64,000 nucleotides of DNA, from contig NZ_CP152002.1 in assembly GCF_038595055.1 (NCBI RefSeq), positions 1,160,501 to 1,224,500 of the forward strand. Reading direction: 5' to 3'. Source of the DNA: Paenibacillus sp. FSL R7-0345 (lineage in GTDB: Bacteria; Bacillota; Bacilli; Paenibacillales; Paenibacillaceae). Position 1 is the first letter of the stretch, and the number at the start of each line of letters is the position of its first letter. Under the pieces are notes generated by a model. It did not search any database and was not told the DNA's origin. It worked only from the letters and a program-made list of their open reading frames with translations. The translations under genes and the position numbers were made by a program. Shown one piece after another: positions 3,842 through 62,689 of this stretch.

Positions 3842-5035
3842 CTACGGTTTGACATAACCTAAAGGATTGACCGCTGTATTCTGCTTGAGCACCTGAAAAT
3901 GAAGATGCGGCCCTGTACTGCGTCCGGTATTGCCGAGTGTACCGATTTGCTCGCCTTTGCTGACCTTATCCCCGGCAGAGACTTCCATGCTGTTCAGATG
4001 CATGTACCAGGTTTCCAGGCCGCTCGCATGCTTGATAATAATATACTTGCCTCTGGCCCCCATCTGGTCGGATGCGGTAACTTCACCGTCCATGGCCGCA
4101 TAAACCGGGTCGCCGATGCTGCCGGCAATATCGATTCCCGAGTGATAGGCGGAGACCCCCTTAAAGGGGTCAGAGCGGTAGCCGAAGCTGGAGGTAATGA
4201 CTTTGGACTGGGTAGGCCAGAGAACAGCCGGCGCCAGCCGGGCCTTTTCTGCAAGGGCCTGCTTGGCCTGAAGCTGGGCTTCTGCGTGTTGAACCTCTTT
4301 TGCCTCTGTAATCGTGGCGGAAAGGCTGGTAAGCATCTCATCCAGCAGGCTGCGGATCTCTGCGTAGTCATCCCGCGCCTCCTGAACCATTCCAAGAGGG
4401 TCATCCTGATAGACGGCGATATATTCACCGCCAACCTGAGGGGTTACCGTGCTGCTGATTGCTCCTGAAATCGCCCCCAGACGGAAGCGGACGGCAGGCA
4501 GGGAAGAGACAGCAGGGCTGGACTGCAGTCTGGCTGCACTGTAGCTAATGGACGGGGCTGCAGCTGTGTACGCGGCGAATGCACTAGCTGATGCCGGCTC
4601 TGTGCTGATCCCGGAAATAGAAGCGGAGTCCTTAACCGAATCCGAATCTGAATCAGCATTTTCTTCTGTATCAATCAGCGACTGCAGCTGGGCTTCAAGC
4701 TCGCTTACGCTTTTCAGCTTGTCTTTGATCACCTCGGCTTCTTCAGACAATTCCGTTACCTGGCTGCGGAGCTGCTGCAGCGTCTGATCCTTGTCGGCTA
4801 CCTTAACCTCCATCCGGAGATTGGCCAGCGACAGGGAGGCGGCCTCAGCCTCCAGCTCTGCGATGGAGCGTGAGGAATGAATATGCATGGAAGTAACCAG
4901 ACTGGAAATAGAAAGCGCGGCAGCGGCCGGAAGAGCCAGGGCCAGCGGCCTGGACAGCTGAAGCTGTCTGACCGGACGTCCGGCTTCGCGGACAACGAGC
5001 AGGGTAATCCGGTTATCCTTTGGCTGGGTTTTCAT
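3842..5035 (-). CDS. Membrane-anchored M23 (LytM-type) peptidase with coiled coil
   Basis: A 397-residue protein with a short basic cytoplasmic start, one membrane segment around residues 27-48, a coiled coil rich in E, L and Q (about 55-118), a Ser/Ala-rich linker, a second helical stretch and a C-terminal peptidase_M23 domain (about 275-395). The Zn ligands are present: H and D in YHSGIDIAG, and HLH in GPHLHFQV. It should cleave peptide cross-links of peptidoglycan, or be a scaffold if inactive, although the catalytic residues look intact. It is the first gene of a two-gene operon with a bactofilin, suggesting a role in cell shape or sporulation envelope assembly. Confidence 0.88.
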   Translation of the reverse strand: MKTQPKDNRITLLVVREAGRPVRQLQLSRPLALALPAAAALSISSLVTSMHIHSSRSIAELEAEAASLSLANLRMEVKVADKDQTLQQLRSQVTELSEEAEVIKDKLKSVSELEAQLQSLIDTEENADSDSDSVKDSASISGISTEPASASAFAAYTAAAPSISYSAARLQSSPAVSSLPAVRFRLGAISGAISSTVTPQVGGEYIAVYQDDPLGMVQEARDDYAEIRSLLDEMLTSLSATITEAKEVQHAEAQLQAKQALAEKARLAPAVLWPTQSKVITSSFGYRSDPFKGVSAYHSGIDIAGSIGDPVYAAMDGEVTASDQMGARGKYIIIKHASGLETWYMHLNSMEVSAGDKVSKGEQIGTLGNTGRSTGPHLHFQVLKQNTAVNPLGYVKP

Positions 5036-50827: not shown

Positions 50828-51778
50828 TTATTCCTGCGCAGCAGCATCGAGTTGCGGAACGGGAAGGACGGCGGGCTGGCGTTTCTTTTTAAACAATAGC
50901 TCTTTCAGCGCACCGGCGTTCACGAGCACCGTTCCGGCGATGATGGTGAACACGCCAAGCAGCGTAATCCAGGTCACGGCCTCATTGTAGAACAGATAAC
51001 CCACACCAACGGCAATCGGCGGCGAGATGTACAGCCAGGTGGACGGGAAGACGGGATTTGTCTTGGCGACCAGCCAGTAGAACAGGGTATGTCCAACCAT
51101 GGAGCCGATTACGGTCAGGTAGAGCAGAGAGCCGGTGGTTGTGAGCGAGAGCAGGACCTCAGGATGCCATTGTTCAGTAGCCAGCGACAAAATGAACAGC
51201 AGAACACCTCCGTACATCATCTGTGCGGCATTCAAGGCAACGGGCGAGACACCGGAAAAGGCAGTGATCACTTTTTTCGAATAAATGGCTCCGGCTGCGT
51301 AACAGCATTCTCCGATTAGTACGACAATACAGCCGGTGATCCATAGCGGGGACACGTCCACCACAAGGCTTGGCAGTACGAGCAGCAGTACGCCAGTGAA
51401 GCCGATGATGCAGCCGTACAGAGAGTAGGAGGGTGCTTTTTGGCGGAGAAAAGCGGTCTGCATCAGCAGGATCATCATCGGCCCGGTAGCCGACAGCACG
51501 GCGGCGAGTCCTGACGATACATATTGCTCGGCCCAGTAGAGTGCGGAGAAGGTACCGAAGGTGAGGGCGGCGCCGGTAATCAGCATTTCTTTGCGCAGGA
51601 GCAGGGAGAAGCTGGCTTTGCCTTTGATGACCATCCAGAGAAACAGGACGGCACCGGCCAGAAAGAAGCGGATTCCGGCAGAGAAGAAGGGCGGTAATCC
51701 GGCGTCTACACCGATTTTGATCGCGAGAAAGGTAGTACCGAAAATCAGACAGACGAGTGAATAAGCAAGCATAATCAT
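50828..51778 (-). CDS. EamA/DMT family transporter
   Basis: A 316-residue membrane protein with ten helices in two EamA repeats. The start MIMLAYSLVCLIFGTTFLAIKIG and the late TWLYISPPIAVGVGYLFYNE are typical of the family (RhaT/YdcZ-like permeases, often amino acid or metabolite exporters). ATG 51778 follows AAGGGGAA; the open frame further upstream is not part of the fold. It is divergent from a MocR regulator, which often controls such a neighbour. Confidence 0.87.
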   Translation of the reverse strand: MIMLAYSLVCLIFGTTFLAIKIGVDAGLPPFFSAGIRFFLAGAVLFLWMVIKGKASFSLLLRKEMLITGAALTFGTFSALYWAEQYVSSGLAAVLSATGPMMILLMQTAFLRQKAPSYSLYGCIIGFTGVLLLVLPSLVVDVSPLWITGCIVVLIGECCYAAGAIYSKKVITAFSGVSPVALNAAQMMYGGVLLFILSLATEQWHPEVLLSLTTTGSLLYLTVIGSMVGHTLFYWLVAKTNPVFPSTWLYISPPIAVGVGYLFYNEAVTWITLLGVFTIIAGTVLVNAGALKELLFKKKRQPAVLPVPQLDAAAQE

Positions 51779-52001
51779 ATAAAATTCCCCTTTGCGGTTG
51801 TAATGTGGCACTCTGGTGAAGCAGTTTGGATAATCATAAGGGCAACGGCACAGAACAGTTAATAAGTAACAGAACAGATGAAGGGCGGGATGCTGTACAA
51901 TAGGGAAAACAACAAGAGCTACGGTGGGCAATGGGTGGGCAGTAACGCTGTCTCCGTAGAGGATACGGCTGCGGAAATTGCTGAGGGGAGTGCATACGCT
52001 T

Positions 52002-53420
52002 ATGAAACAACCGGTCAACATGGAGCAGAATCATCCGCTTTTCCGGCAGGTTTATGATTATATGGTGAACCGGATTATGCGGGAGGAATGGAGGGTGCAT
52101 GACAAGCTGCCGTCGATCCGGATGCTGGCTGAGGAGCTGCAGGTGCACCGGCTGACTGTTTTTAAGGCGTACCGGGAGCTGGCCAGCAGCGGCAGAGTCT
52201 ATGTAAAAGACAAATCCGGCTATTATGTGGCGCCTGCCGGCATGCTGCGGGAGGAGCCTGCGGCCGAAGCAGCTGCCGGGGGGCCCGCTTATTCGCTGAC
52301 CAATCCCATGTCCGATATTCAGCGGATGCCGGTCCAGTACCAGTTCTCGCAGGCGCTGATCGATCCGGGTCTGCTGCCGAACCTGTTTCTGTCTGATTAT
52401 GTTAAAAAAGTGTTCGACCTCTATCCCAAGGTCATGGGCACGTATTCTTCTGTTCAGGGCGATCTTGAGCTGCGCGGCGTGCTGAGCCGGCATTATCAGG
52501 AGCACTTCAAGCTGCAGCTGTCGCCTGCTGAACTGCTGATTACCTCAGGGGCCCAGCAGGCGATCAATCTGATTGCCGGTCTGGTGCTCGGGCCGATGGA
52601 TTATGTGCTGGTGGAGCGGCCGACGTATAGTGTGGCCCTGGATATTTTCCGCCGGGCGGGTGCCCGGCTGCTGCCGGTTACGATCACGCCGGAGGGCTAT
52701 GACCTGGAGGCGGTCGAGGAGCTGATGCGCACCTGCCGGCCGCGGATGTTCTACATCAACCCGACCCATCATAATCCGACCGGCTACACCGTGCCGGCGC
52801 GCCAGCGTAAGCTGCTGGTGGAGCTGGCCGAGCGGTACCGCTGCCTGCTGGTCGAGGATGACCCTTTCCGCGACATCTATTTCGGCGAGGCGCCGCCGGC
52901 GCCGTTCTTCGCCTACGATACGGAAGGCTGGGTCATCTACATCAGCAGCTTCAGCAAATACGTGGCGCCGGGCCTGCGGATCTGCGCGGTGGCCTGCCGC
53001 CATCCGTTCATGGAGCGGCTGATTACGGCCAAGTCGATGGCCGACAACGGCTCGCCGCTGCTGAACCAGAAAATCTTCCTGCACTACTACACCTCGCCGC
53101 GCCTGCAGCAGCATCTGGGCAAGCTGCGGATTGCGCTGCAGGTGCATAAGGAGATTATGGAGGAGGAGCTGGCCGGCAGCGGCTGGGAGTGGAGCGCGCC
53201 GGAGGGCGGGCTGAACCTGTGGATTAAGCTGCCGGAGTCCGTCTCCGCTGCCGCGCTGTTCCAGCACAGCATGGAGCAGTCCATCTCCTTCGTTCCGGGT
53301 GAGCTGTGCGACCCGCTCGGGGAGATGACCTCCTGGCTGCGGCTCAGCTATTCCTTCGCCAGTGAGAACGTGCTGCGCGAGGGGATGCGCAAGCTGGTGC
53401 GGCTGGCGCGGGAGCTGTGA
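52002..53420 (+). CDS. MocR-family (GntR-aminotransferase) transcriptional regulator
   Basis: A 472-residue protein. A winged helix-turn-helix (about residues 8-75: LFRQVYDYMVNRIMREEW, LPSIRMLAEELQVHRLTVFKAYRELASSG) is joined to a fold-type I aminotransferase domain (about 110-470) with the PLP lysine in SSFSKYVAPGLR and NPTHHNPTG. Members bind PLP and regulate vitamin B6, GABA or transport genes. ATG 52002 follows GGGGAG; TTG 51978 is an alternative. It is divergent from the EamA transporter gene (223-base gap), which it may control. The 223-base gap shows no clear promoter. Confidence 0.9.
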   Translation: MKQPVNMEQNHPLFRQVYDYMVNRIMREEWRVHDKLPSIRMLAEELQVHRLTVFKAYRELASSGRVYVKDKSGYYVAPAGMLREEPAAEAAAGGPAYSLTNPMSDIQRMPVQYQFSQALIDPGLLPNLFLSDYVKKVFDLYPKVMGTYSSVQGDLELRGVLSRHYQEHFKLQLSPAELLITSGAQQAINLIAGLVLGPMDYVLVERPTYSVALDIFRRAGARLLPVTITPEGYDLEAVEELMRTCRPRMFYINPTHHNPTGYTVPARQRKLLVELAERYRCLLVEDDPFRDIYFGEAPPAPFFAYDTEGWVIYISSFSKYVAPGLRICAVACRHPFMERLITAKSMADNGSPLLNQKIFLHYYTSPRLQQHLGKLRIALQVHKEIMEEELAGSGWEWSAPEGGLNLWIKLPESVSAAALFQHSMEQSISFVPGELCDPLGEMTSWLRLSYSFASENVLREGMRKLVRLAREL

Positions 53421-53787: not shown

Positions 53788-53834
53788 AAACAAAGCGCGC
53801 CCTGTCTGGATGAGCAGACAGGGCGCGCTTTGTT
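53788..53834. terminator. Strong terminator of the cysC operon
   Basis: A perfect stem of about 19 bp (53788-53807 with 53816-53834) with A-rich and T-rich ends, immediately after the cysC stop on the minus strand. Confidence 0.88.
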
Positions 53835-54640
53835 TATTGATTTAGTTTTAGAGAAGTGTGTTCCGTAAGCCAGGCTAATAGTGTGTTAACACTTTCCTCC
53901 GGCGTCTGACCGGCTGTGTGGAGCGTCAGCTCGGGACCGGGCGGTATCTCATAAGGATCGGAAATACCGGTGAACGAGGGAATTTCGCTGCGGCGGGCTT
54001 TGGCATACAGTCCCTTGACGTCCCGGGATTCGCAGACCTCTAATGCACAGTCTACATAGACTTCAGCGAAACGCGGAAGAGTCTGACGGGCATAGTCACG
54101 CATCTCCGTGTAAGGGCTGATGAGTGAGACTACAGTAACCACACCATGACGGTTAAGCATGTCAGCAAGGTACACCGCCCGGCGGATATTCTCGAACCGG
54201 TCCTCCCGGCTGAAGCCGAGTCCTTTGCCGAGCGCGCGTCTCAGTTCGTCTCCGTCCAGCCACTCAGCGGCAATGCCTAATTTGGTCAGCCTGTCCGTCA
54301 GCATAGAGGCAATGGTCGATTTGCCAGCGCCGGACAGACCGGTCAGCCAGATTGTCATGCCTTGATCAGCGACGCCGGTTGTCCTCCCGTCACAAGTCAC
54401 TCCAGCCCCAACATCCGCCCGGCTTACCGAACCATCTGTAGTCACTCCAGCCCCAACATCCGGCCAGTTGGACGCGACAGCAGTTCCGTCATCAACCCGG
54501 TATGCAGCATCATCGTGAGCCGCTCCTGACTCATCATTTCCTTGAGCTGCCGCCTGATCGCAAACCGCCCCAGTCCTATCATCTGCTACAGCCGCTGCAC
54601 CGACCTGAGCTATTCCGGAACTTTCACCATCTGCTCTCAT
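53834..54640 (-). CDS. cysC: Adenylylsulfate kinase with long low-complexity N-terminus
   Basis: A 268-residue protein. Residues 95-268 are a CysC APS kinase: Walker A GLSGAGKST (from residue 101), DGDELRRAL, GFSREDRFENIRR and VKGLYAKARR. It should make PAPS from APS. The first 94 residues are Ala/Gly/Asp-rich with a 15-residue duplication (DVGAGVT units; 45-bp DNA repeats at 54395 and 54440). The long start is supported by GGAGGTGA before ATG 54640 and a 4-base overlap with the radical SAM gene; no good site exists before Met95. No cysD/N, cysH or sulfate genes are near, so it probably serves the operon's product. Confidence 0.88.
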   Translation of the reverse strand: MRADGESSGIAQVGAAAVADDRTGAVCDQAAAQGNDESGAAHDDAAYRVDDGTAVASNWPDVGAGVTTDGSVSRADVGAGVTCDGRTTGVADQGMTIWLTGLSGAGKSTIASMLTDRLTKLGIAAEWLDGDELRRALGKGLGFSREDRFENIRRAVYLADMLNRHGVVTVVSLISPYTEMRDYARQTLPRFAEVYVDCALEVCESRDVKGLYAKARRSEIPSFTGISDPYEIPPGPELTLHTAGQTPEESVNTLLAWLTEHTSLKLNQ

Positions 54641-55509
54641 ACTCTCACCTCCGTTATCCCATAAGGGATCCGCTCAAGCAGACCCCGGCCGTATACCTGC
54701 TCCAGCTGGAGTTCGGGCATATGGATGTATCCGATGTAGCAGTCGCAGACCTTCATCCGGCAGCTCCGTTCAGCAGCGAGTCCCTCAAGTCCGTCGCGGT
54801 AAAGATTGCCGATGACACCACGGTCTTTATAACAGCGTTTTACGGTGCCGGCGCCCTGGACATAAAAAACATGTTTGCCGGCATTGCAGCTTCTGCCCAG
54901 GCTGTCATAGTCGGCGGCATTAATACGAAAATGCGGATCAATACCGCTAAGAAAAGCGAGATCCTCAGGTGTATAGTAATCCGGCTTGTCTTTGTAGGCG
55001 TTCACCCACAGGTAGACTTCGTCCGGCAGGGCGGCCCGCAGCGAAGCAATCGCCGGAAAAGCGCTGCGGATGCCCACACTGCCCACACTAAGCGGAACCC
55101 CCTGCCGATGGACAGCCATGCACTGGGCCAGAAATTTATCCTCACTAACCTGTCCCGGGTGATAGGTAGCCCAGAAGGAGGCTTTGGCAGGGTTCAGTTC
55201 CGGCAGAAAAGCAAGGTTAGCCGACAAATTGGTCTGAATCGCAACCTTGTCTACATGCGGGAGGCGGGAAAGGGTAACAAGCGCATCTCTGTACCAGCGG
55301 TGGATCAAGCCTTCGCCATAAGGATTAAAAAAGATAGACAGCCGGTGCCCCGCTTCACCCTGCTCCGCAGCCCACCGGACAAAGGCCTCAACGCCTTCGC
55401 GGTCTTTGGCCAGTGTTGCTGCGCTGTCTCTGGTTTTGCCGAACGGGCAGTAGGGGCAGTCATAATTGCAGGAGGTGAGGGCTCCTCTATAGTAGAGCAC
55501 CGCATTCAT
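54637..55509 (-). CDS. Radical SAM protein, STM4011 family
   Basis: A 290-residue radical SAM enzyme with the [4Fe-4S] cysteines 14, 18 and 21 (CNYDCPYC). A C-terminal Cys group (SCNAGKHV, RCYKD, SCRMKVCDC) could bind a second cluster. It matches the annotation group called STM4011 family after a Salmonella locus. The function is unknown. It overlaps both the STM4012-type gene upstream and cysC downstream by 4 bases. Confidence 0.82.
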   Translation of the reverse strand: MNAVLYYRGALTSCNYDCPYCPFGKTRDSAATLAKDREGVEAFVRWAAEQGEAGHRLSIFFNPYGEGLIHRWYRDALVTLSRLPHVDKVAIQTNLSANLAFLPELNPAKASFWATYHPGQVSEDKFLAQCMAVHRQGVPLSVGSVGIRSAFPAIASLRAALPDEVYLWVNAYKDKPDYYTPEDLAFLSGIDPHFRINAADYDSLGRSCNAGKHVFYVQGAGTVKRCYKDRGVIGNLYRDGLEGLAAERSCRMKVCDCYIGYIHMPELQLEQVYGRGLLERIPYGITEVRV

Positions 55510-57017
55510 GGCAAAATAAATCCTTCCATACGCTCCCGGATGTCCCCCGAGATAAACCAGTCACCGATCGAGTCGGAGTAACCCAGCCCCTCAGGGGTTA
55601 ACCGCAGAATATCATTCTGGTCCCCGCGCTGAGCATCACGGTGTTCATCATCCTGAATAGTATCCCGTGCATCATTCTGAGTCACACCCTGATCCCCGTG
55701 CTGGTCCTCAAGCAGCTCCACACTCCGGTCCTCATACTGCAGCTCACCCAAACCGCTCTCCAGCAGCAGGCCAAGCTCGGGATAGTCGTCCCACAGCGAA
55801 GTTGAGAAGCGTTCGCTGTAATCAGCCAGCCGCAGCCCCTCGCTGTGCAGGATGGCCTTCAGAATGAACCGCCGCTTCTGCTCGGCGAGACTCAGCACGA
55901 TGCCGTAATCTGCCGTGTCATAACGCTCCGCTGACACGTAGTCGGCAATGATGCTCTCCGTGGCCTTGCGGCTGACCCCATAGCGGGAGGCGTAATGCAC
56001 CTCCCGCGTGTAGGAGCGGGCGCCGCAGCCGAGCCCGACCATGCCTTCCTCCTGGCAGCTGTAGTCGAGGATGGCCTTGTCCGTGCCGGCCTCTTCTTTG
56101 GCGAACCGCCGCATCGAATACTGGCGGTAGCCATGCTCAGCGAGCAGGCGGCAGGCGGCAATATAGCACTCATGCCGCAGATCCTCGTGACGCAGCAAAT
56201 CGCCCGGCTTCACGATCGTATGCTCGCGGGTGTAGAGCGGATAGATAAAAATCTCCTGCGGTTCATGCAGCAGCGCCTGTCCCAGCGAGTACAGCCAGGA
56301 ATCCACCGTCTGGCCCGGCAGCCCGTAGATCAGGTCGAGATTGAGGATCGGGAACTGGTACCTCCCGAGCAGCTCCAGTGCCTGGTATACCACCTCAGGA
56401 TTTTGCGGACGGTAAATAGCTGCCGATTCGGCTGCGACAAAGCTCTGAATCCCCATGCTGACGCGGTCGACGGTGTTGTCTTTGAGGATAGACAGCTTTT
56501 CTTCCGTAATCGTCTCAGGAGAGGTTTCCACCGAGATCGAAGCCCGGGAGGTGTCCAGGCCCATAATTTCCCGGGCAATCCGGAACAGCCGGCTCAGCTG
56601 CGGTGCAGCCAGCAGGGTCGGCGTACCGCCGCCGATGGCAAACCGGGCATAAGGCTTATGGCCGGTAAAGGCCGACCACTGCCGGGCCTGCCGCTCCAGC
56701 GCATCAACATAGCGGGCATGAACATCAGCACGCTTGTCCGGCAGGGTGAACAGGTTGCAGAAGCCGCAGCGTGCGCCGCAGAACGGGATATGCATATATA
56801 GAAAGAACGTTTCCGCAGGCTCATTGAGCCACAGCTGCTCCAGAGAAACGGGCGGCTGGAAATCGCGGTACGCGGTTTTGTGCGGATAAGAGTAGAGATA
56901 ATTGCGGTACGGATTAGCGGTGATCTGCTGTTTCCATTGCTCGGCCTCCCCCGAAGAGAGAGACGGTCTTACGTCATTTGTACTGGGTTGCTGCAAAAAG
57001 TTGCCGGTAGACGTCAT
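55506..57017 (-). CDS. Radical SAM protein, STM4012 family (HemW-like)
   Basis: A 503-residue protein with the HemN/HemW layout: YMHIPFCGARCGFCNLF (cysteines 80, 84, 87), AIGGGTPTLL, SVETSPETI and LDLIYGLPGQT. HemW-like proteins bind haem; whether this one does is unknown. Near the C-terminus (about residues 437-470) is a D/Q/R-rich low-complexity insert (VTQNDARDTIQDDEHRDAQ) before LTPEGLGYSD. It belongs to the STM4012 group of uncharacterised cluster proteins. Confidence 0.82.
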   Translation of the reverse strand: MTSTGNFLQQPSTNDVRPSLSSGEAEQWKQQITANPYRNYLYSYPHKTAYRDFQPPVSLEQLWLNEPAETFFLYMHIPFCGARCGFCNLFTLPDKRADVHARYVDALERQARQWSAFTGHKPYARFAIGGGTPTLLAAPQLSRLFRIAREIMGLDTSRASISVETSPETITEEKLSILKDNTVDRVSMGIQSFVAAESAAIYRPQNPEVVYQALELLGRYQFPILNLDLIYGLPGQTVDSWLYSLGQALLHEPQEIFIYPLYTREHTIVKPGDLLRHEDLRHECYIAACRLLAEHGYRQYSMRRFAKEEAGTDKAILDYSCQEEGMVGLGCGARSYTREVHYASRYGVSRKATESIIADYVSAERYDTADYGIVLSLAEQKRRFILKAILHSEGLRLADYSERFSTSLWDDYPELGLLLESGLGELQYEDRSVELLEDQHGDQGVTQNDARDTIQDDEHRDAQRGDQNDILRLTPEGLGYSDSIGDWFISGDIRERMEGFILP

Positions 57018-57056
57018 ACGTTTCTCCTTTCATCCGGATTGAACCGGTGTACCAGG

Positions 57057-57842
57057 CTAGAGGATAAACTCCCGGTAAGGGACATTCCAAACCGTCTCAT
57101 GTGCCAGCCGGTGCCCCTCATAGCCATCTTCCCCGTAGGCGGTGCCATGGTCTGAAAAAGCCATGCAAAAAACCGGATTGTCGCGTTCCCGGAACCGCGC
57201 GAACAACCGTCCCAGCTCCCCGTCGGCATAACGCAGGGCGGCGCGCTGGCTGTCTACGGAATCCTTCCGGGCACCCGGCAGGAACATGTGGTTAGGCCCG
57301 TGAATGGCAGACACGTTGAGGAACAGGAACAGCCGCTGATCCAGCGGGGTGTTGTCCAGCACCTTCAAGGCATGATTCACCTGATGCTCCGTGGAGCGCG
57401 GATTCGTGACACCGAAGGTCATCCGCCAGTAGCTTTGCTGGAAGTAACCGGGCAGGATGCGAGCTAAGGGCACTTTTTTGGTGAAAAAAATAACCCCGCC
57501 GATGCACACTGTACGATAGCCCTCTCCGGCAAGTCCGGATACAAGATCCGGGGTGTCGAACAGCCAGGTGTGGGGATGGGTTTTCATCCCGGTGTTTTTG
57601 GAATGGAACAGCCGCACATGGGAGGCTTTGTCCGTGTTAGCGGGAGTCGGCAGGAAGCCGCCGAAAAAGGCATGGTGTGCGGCGTAGGTGAAGCTGCCGG
57701 GGGTGTGCCTTTTTTCCCAGGAGCCGGTGCCGCAAAGGTTAGGGCAGTTACCTTCCTCCAGCACGGCAGCATCATAACGCAGGGTATCGAGCGTAATCAT
57801 CAGAATATCATGGGTGCCGACAATGGCATTCATATCAGTCAT
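57057..57842 (-). CDS. Sulfatase-fold protein, STM4013/SEN3800 family
   Basis: A 261-residue protein of the alkaline phosphatase/sulfatase superfamily: ILMITLDTLRYDA (metal Asp), an internal NVSAIHGPNHMF and the late FSDHGTAYGEDGYEGHRLAHE (metal Asp-His). It lacks a clear CxPxR sulfatase motif and a signal peptide, so it may be a cytoplasmic phosphatase, sulfatase or transferase. It follows the ATP-grasp gene in the operon (22-base gap). Confidence 0.8.
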   Translation of the reverse strand: MTDMNAIVGTHDILMITLDTLRYDAAVLEEGNCPNLCGTGSWEKRHTPGSFTYAAHHAFFGGFLPTPANTDKASHVRLFHSKNTGMKTHPHTWLFDTPDLVSGLAGEGYRTVCIGGVIFFTKKVPLARILPGYFQQSYWRMTFGVTNPRSTEHQVNHALKVLDNTPLDQRLFLFLNVSAIHGPNHMFLPGARKDSVDSQRAALRYADGELGRLFARFRERDNPVFCMAFSDHGTAYGEDGYEGHRLAHETVWNVPYREFIL

Positions 57843-57864
57843 GATCGTTAATATAGCACCCTTT

Positions 57865-59181
57865 CTAAGTGGATAAAGTCCGGTATTCCGTCAGTTTTTT
57901 CATTTCCCATTCGTAAGTGCCGAGGCCTTCATATTCAACATCGTACAGCAGGTCGCCAAAAGGGTTCACATCAGCCACATAAGTGCGCTTTACGCCGCCT
58001 GACCCGGAAGAGACAAGAACATCGATTCCTGCGACCGCCGAGCGGGGGAAAGCGGCCAGTGCCTGCACGGCTGTGCGCCGTACCTGTTCCTGCTCCGCTT
58101 CCGTCAGTCCGGCCTCCAGCGGTGTCATCCGCCGGCTGCGCAGGTGCAGGTTAGTAATCGGTGTCGTGCTGACCCGGGCTACAGAATGGCCGGCTTCACC
58201 AAGGACGACCAGCTGGCGGATATCAAAGGAACCTCCTGCTAATCCGGCCTTGGGAATCCATTGCTCGGCATATGCGCCGTGACTGTAGAGCCAGTTAATG
58301 ATTTCCTTCAGGACTGCAGAGTCCGTGTAGCGCCGCAGCTTACCGGCATTATAGTACACTGGGGGACGGGTAATGTACTGCTCGACCCCGATGGTAGTCA
58401 CAGCCAGCTCAGCCCCCGTGGTTGGATTAATCTGATAAGCAACCACGCCGGAAGCGGCTGAGCCGCAAGCCAGCTTGATGAAGACCCGGTGCATCCGCTC
58501 CGCCAGCATCAGCTCCCTGAGCGATTCATATCCGCTCGGCGGCTGGCTGCCGCCAAGCGGCCGGGGAACCGGAACGCCGGCCGCTGCCAGAAGCTGCTGC
58601 GTCCGGCGCTTGTCCGTCATCCCGGCAATATCGCCGGGATGATTCTGCCAGCGGGCGGCCGGCAGCAGTGCGGCGGCTTCGCGCTGAAGCCTGGCCAGCA
58701 GCCGGCAGTAGCCGCGGAACCACTGGGACGGGTGGTGTAGCACACCCGGCGTATCCTTCAGCCGTCCGGCGGCCCGGACGCTGAGCGGGTAGGGATCGCA
58801 CTGCTGCCCGAAGGGGTGCAGCGAATCATCCTGCTCCCCGGTATCCGGGGCGCCGAGAGCAATAAGGGCCCGCTCGGCTTCGAAGCTGCCGCCGGGCGAC
58901 TCCAGCCGCAGCAGCGGGACAGCCTGTGCGGCTGGCATTTGCTGCTCTGCTTGCCCAGCCGTCAGTCCGCCCAGTGCTTGCCGCTCCAGCAGCTCCGCTA
59001 CCCGGCCGCCTTGTGCCTGGCGCTCCAGCAGCTCCGCCAGCGAAGCACCCTGCAGCAGCTCATGGTACGAAATGAGCAGAGCAGGGGGCAGCCCAAGCCT
59101 GCTGCGTGCCTGCTGAATCCCGGCCGAACGCTTGTCGCCGGGGCTGCACAGCAGGACCAGCGGCTGCGCTTCCTGCATCAT
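57865..59181 (-). CDS. ATP-grasp protein, STM4014 family
   Basis: A 438-residue protein with an ATP-grasp domain in its C-terminal half: VFIKLACGSAASGVVAY (about residues 235-250), FDIRQLVVLGE, NLHLRSRR and VADVNPFGDLL (metal site). Such enzymes ligate a carboxylate to an amine or thiol. The N-terminal part has an in-frame tandem duplication (AELLERQAQGGRV then AELLERQALGGLT, 39-bp DNA period at 58982 and 59021). It overlaps the upstream LRR gene by 4 bases. Confidence 0.82.
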   Translation of the reverse strand: MMQEAQPLVLLCSPGDKRSAGIQQARSRLGLPPALLISYHELLQGASLAELLERQAQGGRVAELLERQALGGLTAGQAEQQMPAAQAVPLLRLESPGGSFEAERALIALGAPDTGEQDDSLHPFGQQCDPYPLSVRAAGRLKDTPGVLHHPSQWFRGYCRLLARLQREAAALLPAARWQNHPGDIAGMTDKRRTQQLLAAAGVPVPRPLGGSQPPSGYESLRELMLAERMHRVFIKLACGSAASGVVAYQINPTTGAELAVTTIGVEQYITRPPVYYNAGKLRRYTDSAVLKEIINWLYSHGAYAEQWIPKAGLAGGSFDIRQLVVLGEAGHSVARVSTTPITNLHLRSRRMTPLEAGLTEAEQEQVRRTAVQALAAFPRSAVAGIDVLVSSGSGGVKRTYVADVNPFGDLLYDVEYEGLGTYEWEMKKLTEYRTLST

Positions 59182-60023
59182 TCAGTGATGGACGGATAAC
59201 GCCAGTCTTCGTCGTCATCGCTTTTTTGCTGGTCGCTGACATTAACCGGCAGGCCGGTGGCTTTCCAGCGGGCTATCATCTCATCCGACATATAATGATG
59301 GCTTAAGTCCAGTGTCTGCAGGCCTTTGATCCGCTCAATGGCCAGCAGCGCCTCCGCGCCCTTGTCACTAAGCGTTCCAAGCGACAGGTCAAGCGTATGA
59401 AGCTGATCGAGGATAGGTGCATTAGCCAGCGCCTCGGCGATCTCATCCTCAATTTCACTATTTTTTAGCCCGAGATAGGTCAGCTTCGGAAACTTCTCCG
59501 GTTGGATCAGCGGCAGGAGATCTTCGAGACTTCCGTCAAATCCATAATTATCGACGCCGAGGTAGAGCTCCAGCTTGCGCAGATTCGGCAAAGAGCCGGC
59601 TGCGATCTCGGCGAGCACTTTTTTACTGAGACCGCCTGTAATAATAATCAGTTCCTCCAGCTTGTCATGCTGCAGCTTGCTGAGGCCAAGATCGGTCCCG
59701 CCTTGTATGGTGAGTGATTGAAGCTCCGGGTAGGCAGGGAGCAGGGGGGAGAGATCGGTCTGCGTTATCCACGAAATTTCACATTCCTCGTAGCTCATGT
59801 CTCCGATAAACAGCTTGCGCAGGGCCGGAAAGCTTCCGCTGTGCTTAACAAGCGCCTCCACAACCTCATCCGAGCTGTTCTCGTAGGCCTGGCCCCAATC
59901 CCCGATGATGAGGCTGGTCAGCTGCGCAGCCTCAGGGCTGGCGCTAAGGCGCTCAATCTCCGTATTCATTCGTTGGCCGTCTTCATATTCATCGTATCCG
60001 ACAGCAAGCTTTACTTCCGTCAT
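59178..60023 (-). CDS. Leucine-rich-repeat protein, STM4015 family
   Basis: A 281-residue soluble protein with at least six LRR-like units (ALRKLFIGDMS, ELQSLTIQGG, KLEELIIITGG, NLRKLELYLGV, KLTYLGLKNSE, QLHTLDLSLGT, GLQTLDLSHHY). It has no catalytic motif; a scaffold or substrate-recognition role is likely. Its C-terminus is acidic. GGGAGGG precedes the ATG. It is the first gene of the six-gene operon. Confidence 0.82.
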   Translation of the reverse strand: MTEVKLAVGYDEYEDGQRMNTEIERLSASPEAAQLTSLIIGDWGQAYENSSDEVVEALVKHSGSFPALRKLFIGDMSYEECEISWITQTDLSPLLPAYPELQSLTIQGGTDLGLSKLQHDKLEELIIITGGLSKKVLAEIAAGSLPNLRKLELYLGVDNYGFDGSLEDLLPLIQPEKFPKLTYLGLKNSEIEDEIAEALANAPILDQLHTLDLSLGTLSDKGAEALLAIERIKGLQTLDLSHHYMSDEMIARWKATGLPVNVSDQQKSDDDEDWRYPSITE

Positions 60024-60179: not shown

Positions 60180-61589
60180 TCAGGCCCAGCCGAGCAGCCG
60201 GACGATCTGTGCGATGGCAAAGGTGACGCCGATGGCGATACCGAGCGGAATGACGGCGGAGAGCACCGCCCATTTCAGGCTTTTGGTCTCTTTGTAGATA
60301 TTGACCAGCGTGGTGCCGCACGGATAGTGAAGCAACGAGAACAGCATCATATTCAGCGCGGTCAGCCAGGTCCAGCCGTGGCTCAGAAACAGCTCCTTGA
60401 TGCTGCCGATGCCCTCAACGTCAACCATTGCGCCAGAGGACATGTAGCCCATGAGCAGGATCGGCAGCACAATTTCGTTGGCAGGCAGCCCGAGAATGAA
60501 CGCCATAATGATGAAGCCGTCCAGACCGAGCAGCTGGGCAAAAGGATCAAAAAATGCCGCCATATGATTAAGCACACTGTCCCCGCCGATAACCACATTG
60601 CCAAGTATCCAGGTGAGAATGCCGGCCGGAGCGGCAACGACAATGGCTCGGGTCAGCACGTTCAGTGATTTTTCCTTGGAGGAGCGGACAATCGTCTTCC
60701 AGATCTGCGGGCGGCGGTACGGCGGCAGCTCAAGGGTGTAGTGGGTCGGCACGCCGCGCAGCATCGTTTTGGACATGACCCAGGATACAGTCAGGGTAAC
60801 GGTGATGCCTACCAGTACGATTCCCATTAGAACAAGCGCAGTGGAGAAGGTGCGCAGCGCACCTGTTGCTGAGGCACCGACCATAAATAAGGAGGACAGC
60901 AGGATCAGCGTCGGCCAGCGCCCGTTACAAGGCACGAAATTATTGGTCAGAATCGCCAGCATCCGCTCGCGCGGCGACTCGATAATCCGGGTGGAGAGAA
61001 TGGCGGCAGCGTTACAGCCGAATCCCATCGACATGGTCAGGGCCTGCTTGCCGTGTCCGCCGGATTTTTTGAACAGACGGTCCATATTAAAAGCGACCCG
61101 CGGCAGATAGCCGAAATTCTCCAGCAGCGCAAACACGGGGAAAAAGATCATCATCGGCGGCAGCATGACGCTAATAACCCAGGAGGTACCGCGGTACAGT
61201 CCGAGAACAAGTACGCCGTGCAGCCATGAAGGTGCACTAACAGCTTCAAAGCCGGCAGTCAGATAGCCCTCAATCCAGCCGAAAAAAGAAGCCAGCCAGC
61301 TTGACGGATAATTCGCCCCGGCAATCGTAATCCAGAACACCAGGCCAAGCCCGGCGAGCATAATCGGGAAACCCCAGAGCTTCGAGGTGACGATCCGGTC
61401 AAGCTTGTAGGTGCTGCCCAGCTTCTTTTTATCCTGATAGGAGACAGCTTCACGGCAAATGCCTGCTGATACCCCGTATATGCCGGTGACAATCTCATCG
61501 CGGATTGCGCCCTTGTCGGCCAGATTTCGGGCTGCTGTCAGCAGGGAATCCAGCGGATCGGTACCTTTAATGGCATGCAGTGACTCCAT
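60180..61589 (-). CDS. feoB: FeoB membrane domain, encoded as a separate protein
   Basis: A 469-residue membrane protein equal to the C-terminal permease part of FeoB: two Gate motifs (GFGCNAAAILSTRIIESPRER and LPANEIVLPI) and about ten helices. It starts at ATG 61589 inside the 3' end of the G-domain gene, with AAGGAGGT eight bases before. The product begins with the last part of the cytosolic helical domain (SLHAIKGTDPLDSLL). Together with the other half it imports Fe(II). Confidence 0.9.
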   Translation of the reverse strand: MESLHAIKGTDPLDSLLTAARNLADKGAIRDEIVTGIYGVSAGICREAVSYQDKKKLGSTYKLDRIVTSKLWGFPIMLAGLGLVFWITIAGANYPSSWLASFFGWIEGYLTAGFEAVSAPSWLHGVLVLGLYRGTSWVISVMLPPMMIFFPVFALLENFGYLPRVAFNMDRLFKKSGGHGKQALTMSMGFGCNAAAILSTRIIESPRERMLAILTNNFVPCNGRWPTLILLSSLFMVGASATGALRTFSTALVLMGIVLVGITVTLTVSWVMSKTMLRGVPTHYTLELPPYRRPQIWKTIVRSSKEKSLNVLTRAIVVAAPAGILTWILGNVVIGGDSVLNHMAAFFDPFAQLLGLDGFIIMAFILGLPANEIVLPILLMGYMSSGAMVDVEGIGSIKELFLSHGWTWLTALNMMLFSLLHYPCGTTLVNIYKETKSLKWAVLSAVIPLGIAIGVTFAIAQIVRLLGWA

Positions 61590-62298
61590 GTCCGGCTACC
61601 TCCTTATGCGCAGGGCTTGTGCTGCGCCCCATATGGCTTTTGAGTGAGCTCAGCAGACTGCTGTCACCGTCCAGAAGCCGCAGGGCAATCCAGCGGGCGG
61701 GATAACGTGAGCCTAACGTCTGCTCCACCAGCGGCAGCAGCTCGGCAATACCCTGCTCAATCTCATTGCTATAAGTAATCTTCAGCGGCTTGCCGGTGAA
61801 GACGCCTGTCGCCACGCGCTCCAGCTGGTCCAGCAGTGCCCCGATTCCGGTCTGATTGCGTGCCGAGATGGCCACGACCGGAACACCGAGCTGCCTCGCG
61901 ATGGCTTTCAGGTTAATATCGATGCCAAGCTTCTTCGCTTCATCGATCAGGTTGATGCACACTACGGCCCGGCCTGTAATCTCCAGCACCTGAAGGGCGA
62001 GATTCAGGTTACGCTCAAGCGACGTGGCATCCAGCACAACCAGCGTCACATCCGGCTGCTCAAAAATAATATAATCCCGGGCAGCCTCCTCATCAGCGGA
62101 GTTAGAGTACAGTGAGTAAGTACCCGGCAGATCAACAGCACGGTAGACATGCTGATTATGGGTGAACTCTCCCTCGGCGGTAGTGACCGTCTTGCCCGCC
62201 CAGTTGCCGGTATGCTGGCGCAGTCCGGTCAGCAGGTTGAATAGGGTGCTTTTACCAGTGTTAGGATTGCCGGCAAAAGCGACAGTATAATGGCTCAT
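61567..62298 (-). CDS. feoB: FeoB GTPase domain, encoded as a separate protein
   Basis: A 243-residue protein with G1 GNPNTGKST, G3 VDLPGTYS, G4 NLID and G5 SARN, and part of the helical GDI domain. It ends about where the helical domain should continue, with HKEVAGHG encoded by the ribosome binding site of the next gene. Its start overlaps the feoA stop by 4 bases. The GTPase half and the membrane half overlap by 23 bases. Two functional start signals make a genuine split more likely than a sequencing frameshift. Confidence 0.9.
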   Translation of the reverse strand: MSHYTVAFAGNPNTGKSTLFNLLTGLRQHTGNWAGKTVTTAEGEFTHNQHVYRAVDLPGTYSLYSNSADEEAARDYIIFEQPDVTLVVLDATSLERNLNLALQVLEITGRAVVCINLIDEAKKLGIDINLKAIARQLGVPVVAISARNQTGIGALLDQLERVATGVFTGKPLKITYSNEIEQGIAELLPLVEQTLGSRYPARWIALRLLDGDSSLLSSLKSHMGRSTSPAHKEVAGHGVTACH

Positions 62299-62549
62299 GC
62301 TTCCCCACCTCCAAGCAGTACCCCGTAAATCAGCGAGCTTTCTTCCCGGCGCAGGGCGATCGTTGTATTGCTTACCCGGAAAGCGACAGGATCTCCAAGC
62401 GGGCTGCGCCGCAGCACTTCCACGGTATTGCCTACAACAAACCCGAGATCAAGCAGCCTTCTGCGCAGGATGCCCTGAACGTCAATGCCGCTGATGCGCA
62501 GCGTGCTGCCGTTTAATGCTTCAGACAAGGAAATAGCGGCTACAGCCAT
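62295..62549 (-). CDS. feoA: Ferrous iron transport protein A
   Basis: An 84-residue SH3-like protein with MAVAAISLSEALNGSTLRISGI, RRRLLDLGFVVGNTVEVLRRSPLGDPVAF and a C-terminal REESSLIYGVLL. ATG 62549 is taken because GAAGGA precedes it; the frame runs on to 62675 without family sequence. It assists FeoB. No clear Fur box is seen upstream. Confidence 0.9.
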   Translation of the reverse strand: MAVAAISLSEALNGSTLRISGIDVQGILRRRLLDLGFVVGNTVEVLRRSPLGDPVAFRVSNTTIALRREESSLIYGVLLGGGEA

Positions 62550-62689
62550 AGCAGTTCCTTCTTTCATATGTTTTATCTGGATTGATCTTAAATAAGTCTC
62601 CATTATGCACATGCAATAAAAAATTGTTCTTTGCCACAATATTAGTATATGTAAACAACTTTGTCCCTGGAACAAAAAAGTTTCCGTTG

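Follow-up and report, generated by a model that had tools for sequence, protein, structure and literature searches.

A conserved C-terminal tail, a LysX/RimK-like ligase and an APS kinase association point to a possible carrier-protein system in the STM4011-4015 operon of Paenibacillus

Introduction

What do the five genes of the STM4011-4015 families do together, and why does an adenosine 5'-phosphosulfate (APS) kinase gene stand at their end? The question is raised by a 64,000-nucleotide stretch of the Paenibacillus sp. FSL R7-0345 genome (contig NZ_CP152002.1, positions 1,160,501 to 1,224,500; hereafter the window). Six collinear open reading frames (ORFs) on its minus strand, at 53834-60023, encode STM4015, STM4014, STM4013, STM4012, STM4011 and the APS kinase CysC. 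All five STM proteins score above the cut-offs of the NCBIfam STM4011-STM4015 families, whose models name loci and not functions; many Paenibacillaceae versions of the set add cysC. The open-access literature searched, a scope outside which most subscription journals fall, holds no mention of the family names, and the STM locus names occur there as isolated table rows only. STM4013.S is one row in a table of sigma-54 sites (PMC3844500) and STM4015 is listed as hypothetical (PMC2784778).

Here we tentatively read the operon as a carrier-protein-based modification or biosynthesis system, in which STM4015 would be the carrier or substrate and CysC would provide 3'-phosphoadenosine 5'-phosphosulfate (PAPS); we hold this as a working explanation and stop short of thinking it probable. 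Our analysis adds a LysW-like tail together with a ligase, and an association with PAPS for which no consumer is evident in the 16 genomes searched. The conserved tail, the LysX/RimK-like ligase and the strict APS kinase association make this orphan operon concretely testable. Should an operon enzyme indeed use PAPS, it would represent a new class of PAPS chemistry.

Results and discussion

The set of STM4011-4015 genes plus APS kinase is real, and the initial annotation placed it at the right coordinates. Bit scores against the NCBIfam models (curated cut-offs in brackets) are 370 (275) for STM4015, 382 (175) for STM4014, 394 (250) for STM4013, 560 (380) for STM4012 and 389 (200) for STM4011, and CysC reaches 208.1 bits (138.7) with the ApsK model TIGR00455. 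The features are:

59178..60023, minus strand: STM4015-family leucine-rich repeat (LRR) protein, 281 amino acids, proposed carrier or substrate (NF038076, LRR Pfam matches)
59178..59201, minus strand: STM4015 tail RYPSITE and stop, after the acidic linker SDDDEDW; its terminal Glu is proposed as the site of modification or attachment
57865..59181, minus strand: STM4014-family ATP-grasp ligase with a LysX/ArgX/RimK-like fold
57057..57842, minus strand: STM4013-family protein of the alkaline phosphatase superfamily, Thr52 at the nucleophile position (NF038075, PF00884)
55506..57017, minus strand: STM4012-family HemN-like radical S-adenosylmethionine (SAM) enzyme (NF006067, PF04055, HemN_C)
54637..55509, minus strand: STM4011-family radical SAM enzyme with a Cys-rich C-terminal part (NF038073; sub-threshold PF04055 and SPASM)
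53834..54640, minus strand: APS kinase gene cysC, whose product starts with an extension of about 90 residues of low complexity (TIGR00455, PF01583)
53788..53835, strand unassigned: 20-pair hairpin at the cysC stop codon, likely the operon terminator (consensus match)

Overlaps had been claimed for four of the five junctions, which is wrong: 4-base overlaps join three (4015/4014, 4012/4011 and 4011/cysC), and gaps of 22 and 39 bases lie at 4014/4013 and 4013/4012. Terminator-like sites in the region number 7 against 5.8 expected; the hairpin at the cysC stop has by far the longest stem of them, which would suit a unit that ends with cysC.

The five-gene order is kept in 73 of 74 fetched Paenibacillaceae loci, the remaining one (L110) ending at a contig edge, so that the arrangement is not a matter of chance. 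These 74 loci come from the 80 best-scoring of at least 573 matches, a choice that favours close relatives; plasmid loci were added. A P. polymyxa genome is among those with the operon (locus L091). The same five-gene order is found on plasmids of Paenibacillus, Methylobacterium, Deinococcus and Streptomyces, and STM4011-4015 genes were met in Paenibacillaceae, a clostridial metagenome-assembled genome, Actinomycetota, Deinococcota, Alphaproteobacteria, Myxococcota and Cyanobacteria. No additional accessory gene proved to be conserved: none of the non-core clusters extends beyond 19 of the 74 neighbourhoods in Paenibacillaceae (ORFs below 60 amino acids were not called); this clustering undercounts cysC and STM4013, whose start choice and length vary.

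STM4015 has a near-invariant end. The protein has about 280 residues in Paenibacillaceae and is longer elsewhere, with a start that looks WGR-like by eye in Myxococcus. A variable acidic linker is followed by R-[Y/F]-x-x-[V/I/L]-x-E and the stop codon. Among 88 homologues (76 from Paenibacillaceae and 12 others from six phyla), Arg at position -7 and Glu at position -1 are each present in 87, and both are present in 120/120 further matches, the best 120 of 3469 (Streptomyces wherever named). In place of the tail Tyr, 7 of the 88 have Phe and 2 have Ser. A strict DNA pattern of the Paenibacillus-type tail plus stop matched 18/18 carrier genomes, a list from which one carrier already seen to deviate (G017) was left out, and 0/4 non-carriers; a reversed control pattern gave no match. 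It occurs once per carrier genome, with a second match elsewhere in G082. In the genus, the tail was visible at 27 of 30 loci, the three other fetched stretches showing none. Proteins are usually least conserved at their C-terminal ends; that STM4015 nevertheless keeps its last residue, on a variable linker, suggests a worksite or a recognition tag.

A candidate for the enzyme that works there is STM4014. LysX/ArgX and RimK are ligases that act on the C-terminal Glu of a protein. The predicted structure of STM4014 has the whole-length ATP-grasp fold of this group and finds its nearest solved relatives in it: LysX/ArgX (3vpb, 5k2m) and, within 1 Z unit, RimK structures including the RimK-RpsF complex (5zk6). 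From this model STM4014 is predicted to ligate onto the C-terminal Glu of STM4015, and because its nearest folds are ligases of this kind, STM4015 is probably a substrate or carrier comparable to LysW. A short precursor peptide nearby, which the initial annotation had suggested looking for, is not present between the operon genes: the overlaps and the 22- and 39-base gaps leave no room for a separate precursor gene of the type known from ribosomally synthesized and post-translationally modified peptides (outside the operon, where ORFs of at least 60 amino acids were covered, no non-core gene goes beyond 19 of the 74 loci). The likely substrate is instead the C-terminal tail of STM4015 itself.

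Both radical SAM enzymes keep the CX3CX2C motif, STM4012 in 84/84 and STM4011 in 82/82 sequences. STM4012 also resembles HemN (1olt, E 4e-28) and the methyltransferase NocN (9p2u) among solved sequences and thus joins the motif to the similarity that marks HemN-like enzymes.

For STM4013, earlier described as a sulfatase-fold protein, the fold stands and the sulfatase does not. Its predicted structure (mean predicted local distance difference test score, pLDDT, 86.4) matches sulfatases and phosphoethanolamine transferases and carries the conserved Asp/His metal ligands of the alkaline phosphatase superfamily; T52, D19, D231, H232, H181, H244 and H248 are invariant in 35/35 sequences. Type I formylglycine sulfatases carry C/S-x-P/A-x-R at the start of the nucleophile helix. 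This helix begins at residue 52 in the model and the formylglycine position is taken by the invariant Thr52 (SFTYAAH), with no sulfatase Cys/Ser motif, and we reject the sulfatase reading for this reason. The sequence is weakly similar to nucleotide pyrophosphatase/phosphodiesterase.

Put together, the parts would fit the following scheme. The LRR body of STM4015 would be a recognition scaffold and its conserved, Glu-ended tail the worksite. STM4014 would activate this Glu as an acyl phosphate in an ADP-forming reaction and join an amino compound to it. STM4012 and STM4011 would then modify the tethered unit or the tail, and STM4013, with Thr as nucleophile, could carry out phosphoryl, nucleotidyl or sulfuryl transfer, or hydrolysis, on either. 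CysC would supply PAPS as co-substrate or group donor.

Known systems resemble this scheme in part. LysW/LysX (ArgX) shares with it a ligase of the same fold and a protein with an acidic tail and a conserved final Glu; LysW is, however, a small zinc protein with an EDWGE tail, whereas here the carrier would be a 281-residue LRR protein ending in RYPSITE, accompanied by two radical SAM enzymes, an alkaline-phosphatase-fold protein and the APS kinase association. RimK acts on the C-terminus of a protein, ribosomal protein S6 (RpsF), and again has the same-fold ligase; here it would act on an LRR protein, in the company of radical SAM enzymes and an APS kinase. In pearlin biosynthesis, amino-acid products are built on a carrier peptide, whose C-terminus receives an amino unit that is then modified in place, in one case by a radical SAM enzyme (PMC9303977). 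The likeness is confined to the proposed C-terminal carrier logic, since the ligase here is an ATP-grasp enzyme and no PEARL-type (tRNA-dependent) ligase family appears among the Pfam matches of the six operon proteins.

Several observations on the tail and the ligase speak against the scheme. The ATP-grasp fold alone leaves the substrate of STM4014 unfixed: PurK, glutathione synthetase, inositol-pyrophosphate kinase and D-Ala ligases score at most about 2.5 Z units lower, and in the Foldseek list inositol-pyrophosphate kinases and the graspetide ligase PsnB are interspersed with LysX/ArgX. Of the LysW-type traits the final Glu is found (87/88 and 120/120); the EDWGE motif and the small Cys-rich zinc domain are not, the window STM4015 having a single Cys in 281 residues. 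One Oscillatoria copy (L117), the single exception among the 88, has additional residues past the tail, and the G017 tail, RYTTIAE, departs from the strict pattern.

The main rival shares the ligase step. In a RimK-like system, STM4014 would add Glu or other amino acids to the C-terminus of STM4015 and so regulate the LRR protein itself; modified STM4015 would be the end product, acting in binding or sensing, the radical SAM enzymes and STM4013 would modify it further, and no small molecule would be released. LRR proteins are usually binding proteins, RimK structures (RimK-RpsF complex included) lie no more than 1 Z unit from LysX/ArgX, no protease, transporter or release enzyme look-alike occurs among the six proteins, and no non-core gene recurs in over 19 of the 74 neighbourhoods. 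Two radical SAM enzymes and PAPS, on the other hand, far exceed the needs of RimK. The present data do not separate a protein product from a tethered metabolite, and we regard the RimK-like alternative as possible, if on the unlikely side.

The carrier reading also has to account for the APS kinase. CysC of the window retains the Walker A, LDGD and FTGI motifs, passes TIGR00455 and is thus a true-looking APS kinase, predicted to make PAPS; it is the sole APS kinase match in the genome, a single contig of 6.98 Mb. In the genus, 42 of 100 genomes carry STM4013, 40 of them over the cut-off and two (G053, G044) with a split or partial gene. APS kinase is present in 42/42 carriers vs 9/58 other genomes (Fisher 1e-19, relatedness uncorrected; matches of 1e-9 or weaker dropped); with the over-cut-off carriers alone the figure is 40/40, the cysC of G044 being partial as well. 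The gene is linked, on the same strand and at most 6 kb from STM4013, in 34 of the 42. Restricted to genomes of at least 6.4 Mb, the count is 39/39 carriers vs 4/24 non-carriers. A sample of 245 Paenibacillaceae genomes gives full-length APS kinase in 94/94 with STM4013, spread over seven genera, vs 75/151 without it, where STM4013 had to exceed its cut-off, APS kinase had to be better than 1e-15, and weaker best matches (21 of 190) were counted as lacking.

At the operon level the picture is different. The initial annotation had named the absence of cysC from most homologous clusters as the point that would refute its reading, and cysC is indeed absent from most: it is the last operon gene at 29 of 73 judgeable Paenibacillaceae loci (L110 set aside) and at 0/9 loci outside the family, where the five genes are seen incompletely at three (L112, L114, L117). 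The part of the claim that survives is the association of whole genomes, in which every sampled carrier has an APS kinase; absent from most clusters yet present in all these carriers, cysC shows a dependence at genome and not at operon level. A strong APS kinase match lies elsewhere in 19 of 20 genomes drawn from the 50 loci without operon cysC (14 of 44 in Paenibacillaceae, 6 of 6 others). Outside Paenibacillaceae, however, the presence of cysC is uninformative because cysC has other uses there.

In a tree of 68 CysC sequences most operon copies fall into one weakly supported group that includes non-operon copies, a group named after the tree was seen, and unlinked copies of carriers are scattered across several lineages. 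Those at the operons of L104 and L157 stand apart as a starred pair. Constraining all 31 operon rows to one clade gave a borderline p of 0.0499 in the approximately unbiased (AU) test, vs 0.477 without L104 and L157 (the long rows OTH_L125 and OTH_L127 were in the first tree and omitted from the second). These sequences suggest, and do not prove, that cysC entered the operon independently.

A use of cysC in ordinary sulfate assimilation was considered and is unlikely. The only ATP-sulfurylase (Sat) match of the window genome lies about 5.1 Mb from the operon in contig coordinates and adjoins CysH, with no cysC beside the pair in the 3.6 kb seen. This CysH scores above the cut-off of the APS reductase model TIGR02055 (252 vs 235.3 bits) and below that of the PAPS reductase model TIGR02057 (219.7 vs 254.2 bits). 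Sat was found in all 22 genus genomes checked, with or without cysC, 16 of which have neither an over-cut-off STM4013 nor a strong cysC match; together with the APS-reductase-like CysH, this makes APS kinase probably dispensable for sulfate assimilation in the genus.

Who then consumes the PAPS? The earlier suggestion of PAPS-dependent sulfation by a conventional sulfotransferase did not find an enzyme: none is encoded in the operon, and Sulfotransfer_1 and Sulfotransfer_3 gave no match in 16 of the 42 genus carriers, two control genomes being matched. Nor was a sulfotransferase seen among the scanned neighbours of unlinked cysC in five (L118-L122) of seven intact genus carriers. Because the searched families were not found, the operon is the natural place to look in these 16 carriers, and the PAPS consumer may lie in it. 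In its most specific form the carrier reading would thus combine a molecule on the C-terminal Glu of the LRR protein with an operon-encoded PAPS-dependent transferase, most likely STM4013 through Thr52, which would transfer a sulfuryl or 3'-phosphoadenylyl group and stand outside all known sulfotransferase families. As a joint claim we consider this unlikely.

Against a role of PAPS in the operon, and so against the carrier reading, stand a number of results. Related genomes make the co-occurrence tests look stronger than they are, and at least 32 genomes belong to both the genus and the family sample. The one exception among the 20 genomes is Thiomargarita G313, where the APS-kinase match is weak; its STM4013 lies on an 11-kb contig without the other genes. 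CysH might still use PAPS. Stf0, the third family of the sulfotransferase search, had no match in the 16 carriers in a search that lacked a matching positive control (two Stf0 proteins beside cysC, scanned by Pfam, also match Sulfotransfer_3), and the genome-wide search covered these three families and not PF03567 or PF06990. Finally, at least three other carriers, all outside the 16-genome search, have sulfotransferase-like genes: beside second cysC copies in G087 (L126; PF00685) and G067 (L137, by similarity), and, as a PF06990/PF03567 match adjoining cysC, in G326 (L153).

These three genes also favour the next alternative, in which a conventional sulfotransferase elsewhere in the genome uses the PAPS made by CysC to sulfate the product or the tail tyrosine. 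APS kinase always accompanies the system in our samples, and the tail aromatic residue sits in an acidic context. Moreover, in the nine genus genomes with cysC and without STM4013, cysC lies beside a sulfotransferase in four (Sulfotransfer_1 in L132; Stf0 in the other three, assigned by Pfam for L128 and L134 and by similarity for L135), and in one (L129) its neighbour is an Inositol_P gene of the CysQ type. The negative searches in 16 carriers argue against it. Tail tyrosine sulfation as the reason for cysC is weakened by the Phe and Ser replacements, and the two Phe-tailed carriers checked (L062 as G327, L065 as G329) keep cysC. Overall we judge such a sulfotransferase quite unlikely.

A role without PAPS can be imagined as well: the CysC homologue would phosphorylate another, nucleotide-like intermediate made by the operon, as Cj1415 does in Campylobacter. 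Cj1415 is a cytidine diphosphoramidate kinase and a CysC homologue. The weak similarity of STM4013 to nucleotide pyrophosphatase/phosphodiesterase would suit such chemistry. As a precedent, PMC11800397 lists Cj1415 among the enzymes making CDP-phosphoramidate 3'-phosphate, and its reference list includes the paper on cytidine diphosphoramidate kinase. The operon CysC, however, keeps the APS kinase motifs and passes TIGR00455, and in other carriers unlinked cysC genes of other lineages apparently suffice, as would be expected of a shared metabolite such as PAPS more than of a pathway-specific kinase; we judge this alternative very unlikely.

Least probable by our reckoning is a coincidental linkage, with cysC a passenger and large-genome soil Paenibacillaceae tending to have both: cysC lies outside the operon in most clusters and all tests were made on related genomes, but the contrasts of 42/42 vs 9/58 in one genus and 39/39 vs 4/24 among large genomes, and the several CysC lineages found in carriers, including a possibly independent operon entry (AU, borderline), run counter to it.

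Other observations on cysC, related loci and neighbouring genes

The linked cysC copies of the genus have open frames of 175 to 346 residues. A conserved protein about 175-208 residues long (L118:7698-8324, and at L120, L121 and L122) adjoins cysC in four carriers whose cysC is not part of the operon; its copies at L118 and L121 have no Pfam or NCBIfam match. A short-chain dehydrogenase lies on the other side of cysC in three of the four. Another cysC lineage, nested with the operon type, adjoins GFO/IDH/MocA oxidoreductase genes at L131, L139 and L151 (Pfam) and L136 (layout only). Two sulfatase genes were seen at L131, and this type is possibly a separate sulfated-sugar locus.

A Rhizobium gene named STM4012 adjoins a pseudoazurin gene, the other four genes being absent, and was not counted as an STM4011-4015 system. 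On plasmids, DUF6745 genes lie beside the operon in Methylobacterium (L004:4004-5026), Deinococcus (L005:10276-11277) and Streptomyces (L006:2314-3381), and STM4015 is duplicated in the latter two (L005, L006); neither DUF6745 nor additional STM4015 copies were seen here.

At 60180-62675 of the window, a FeoA-like ORF that scores below its curated cut-off is followed by FeoB in two pieces, the ORF of the GTPase part (61567-62298) overlapping that of the permease part (60180-61589); this may be a split feoB or a frameshift. Downstream of the operon lie a MocR-like regulator (PdxR-type, below cut-off; 51978-53420, plus strand) and a gene resembling drug/metabolite exporters (YedA-type, below cut-off; 50828-52021, minus strand).

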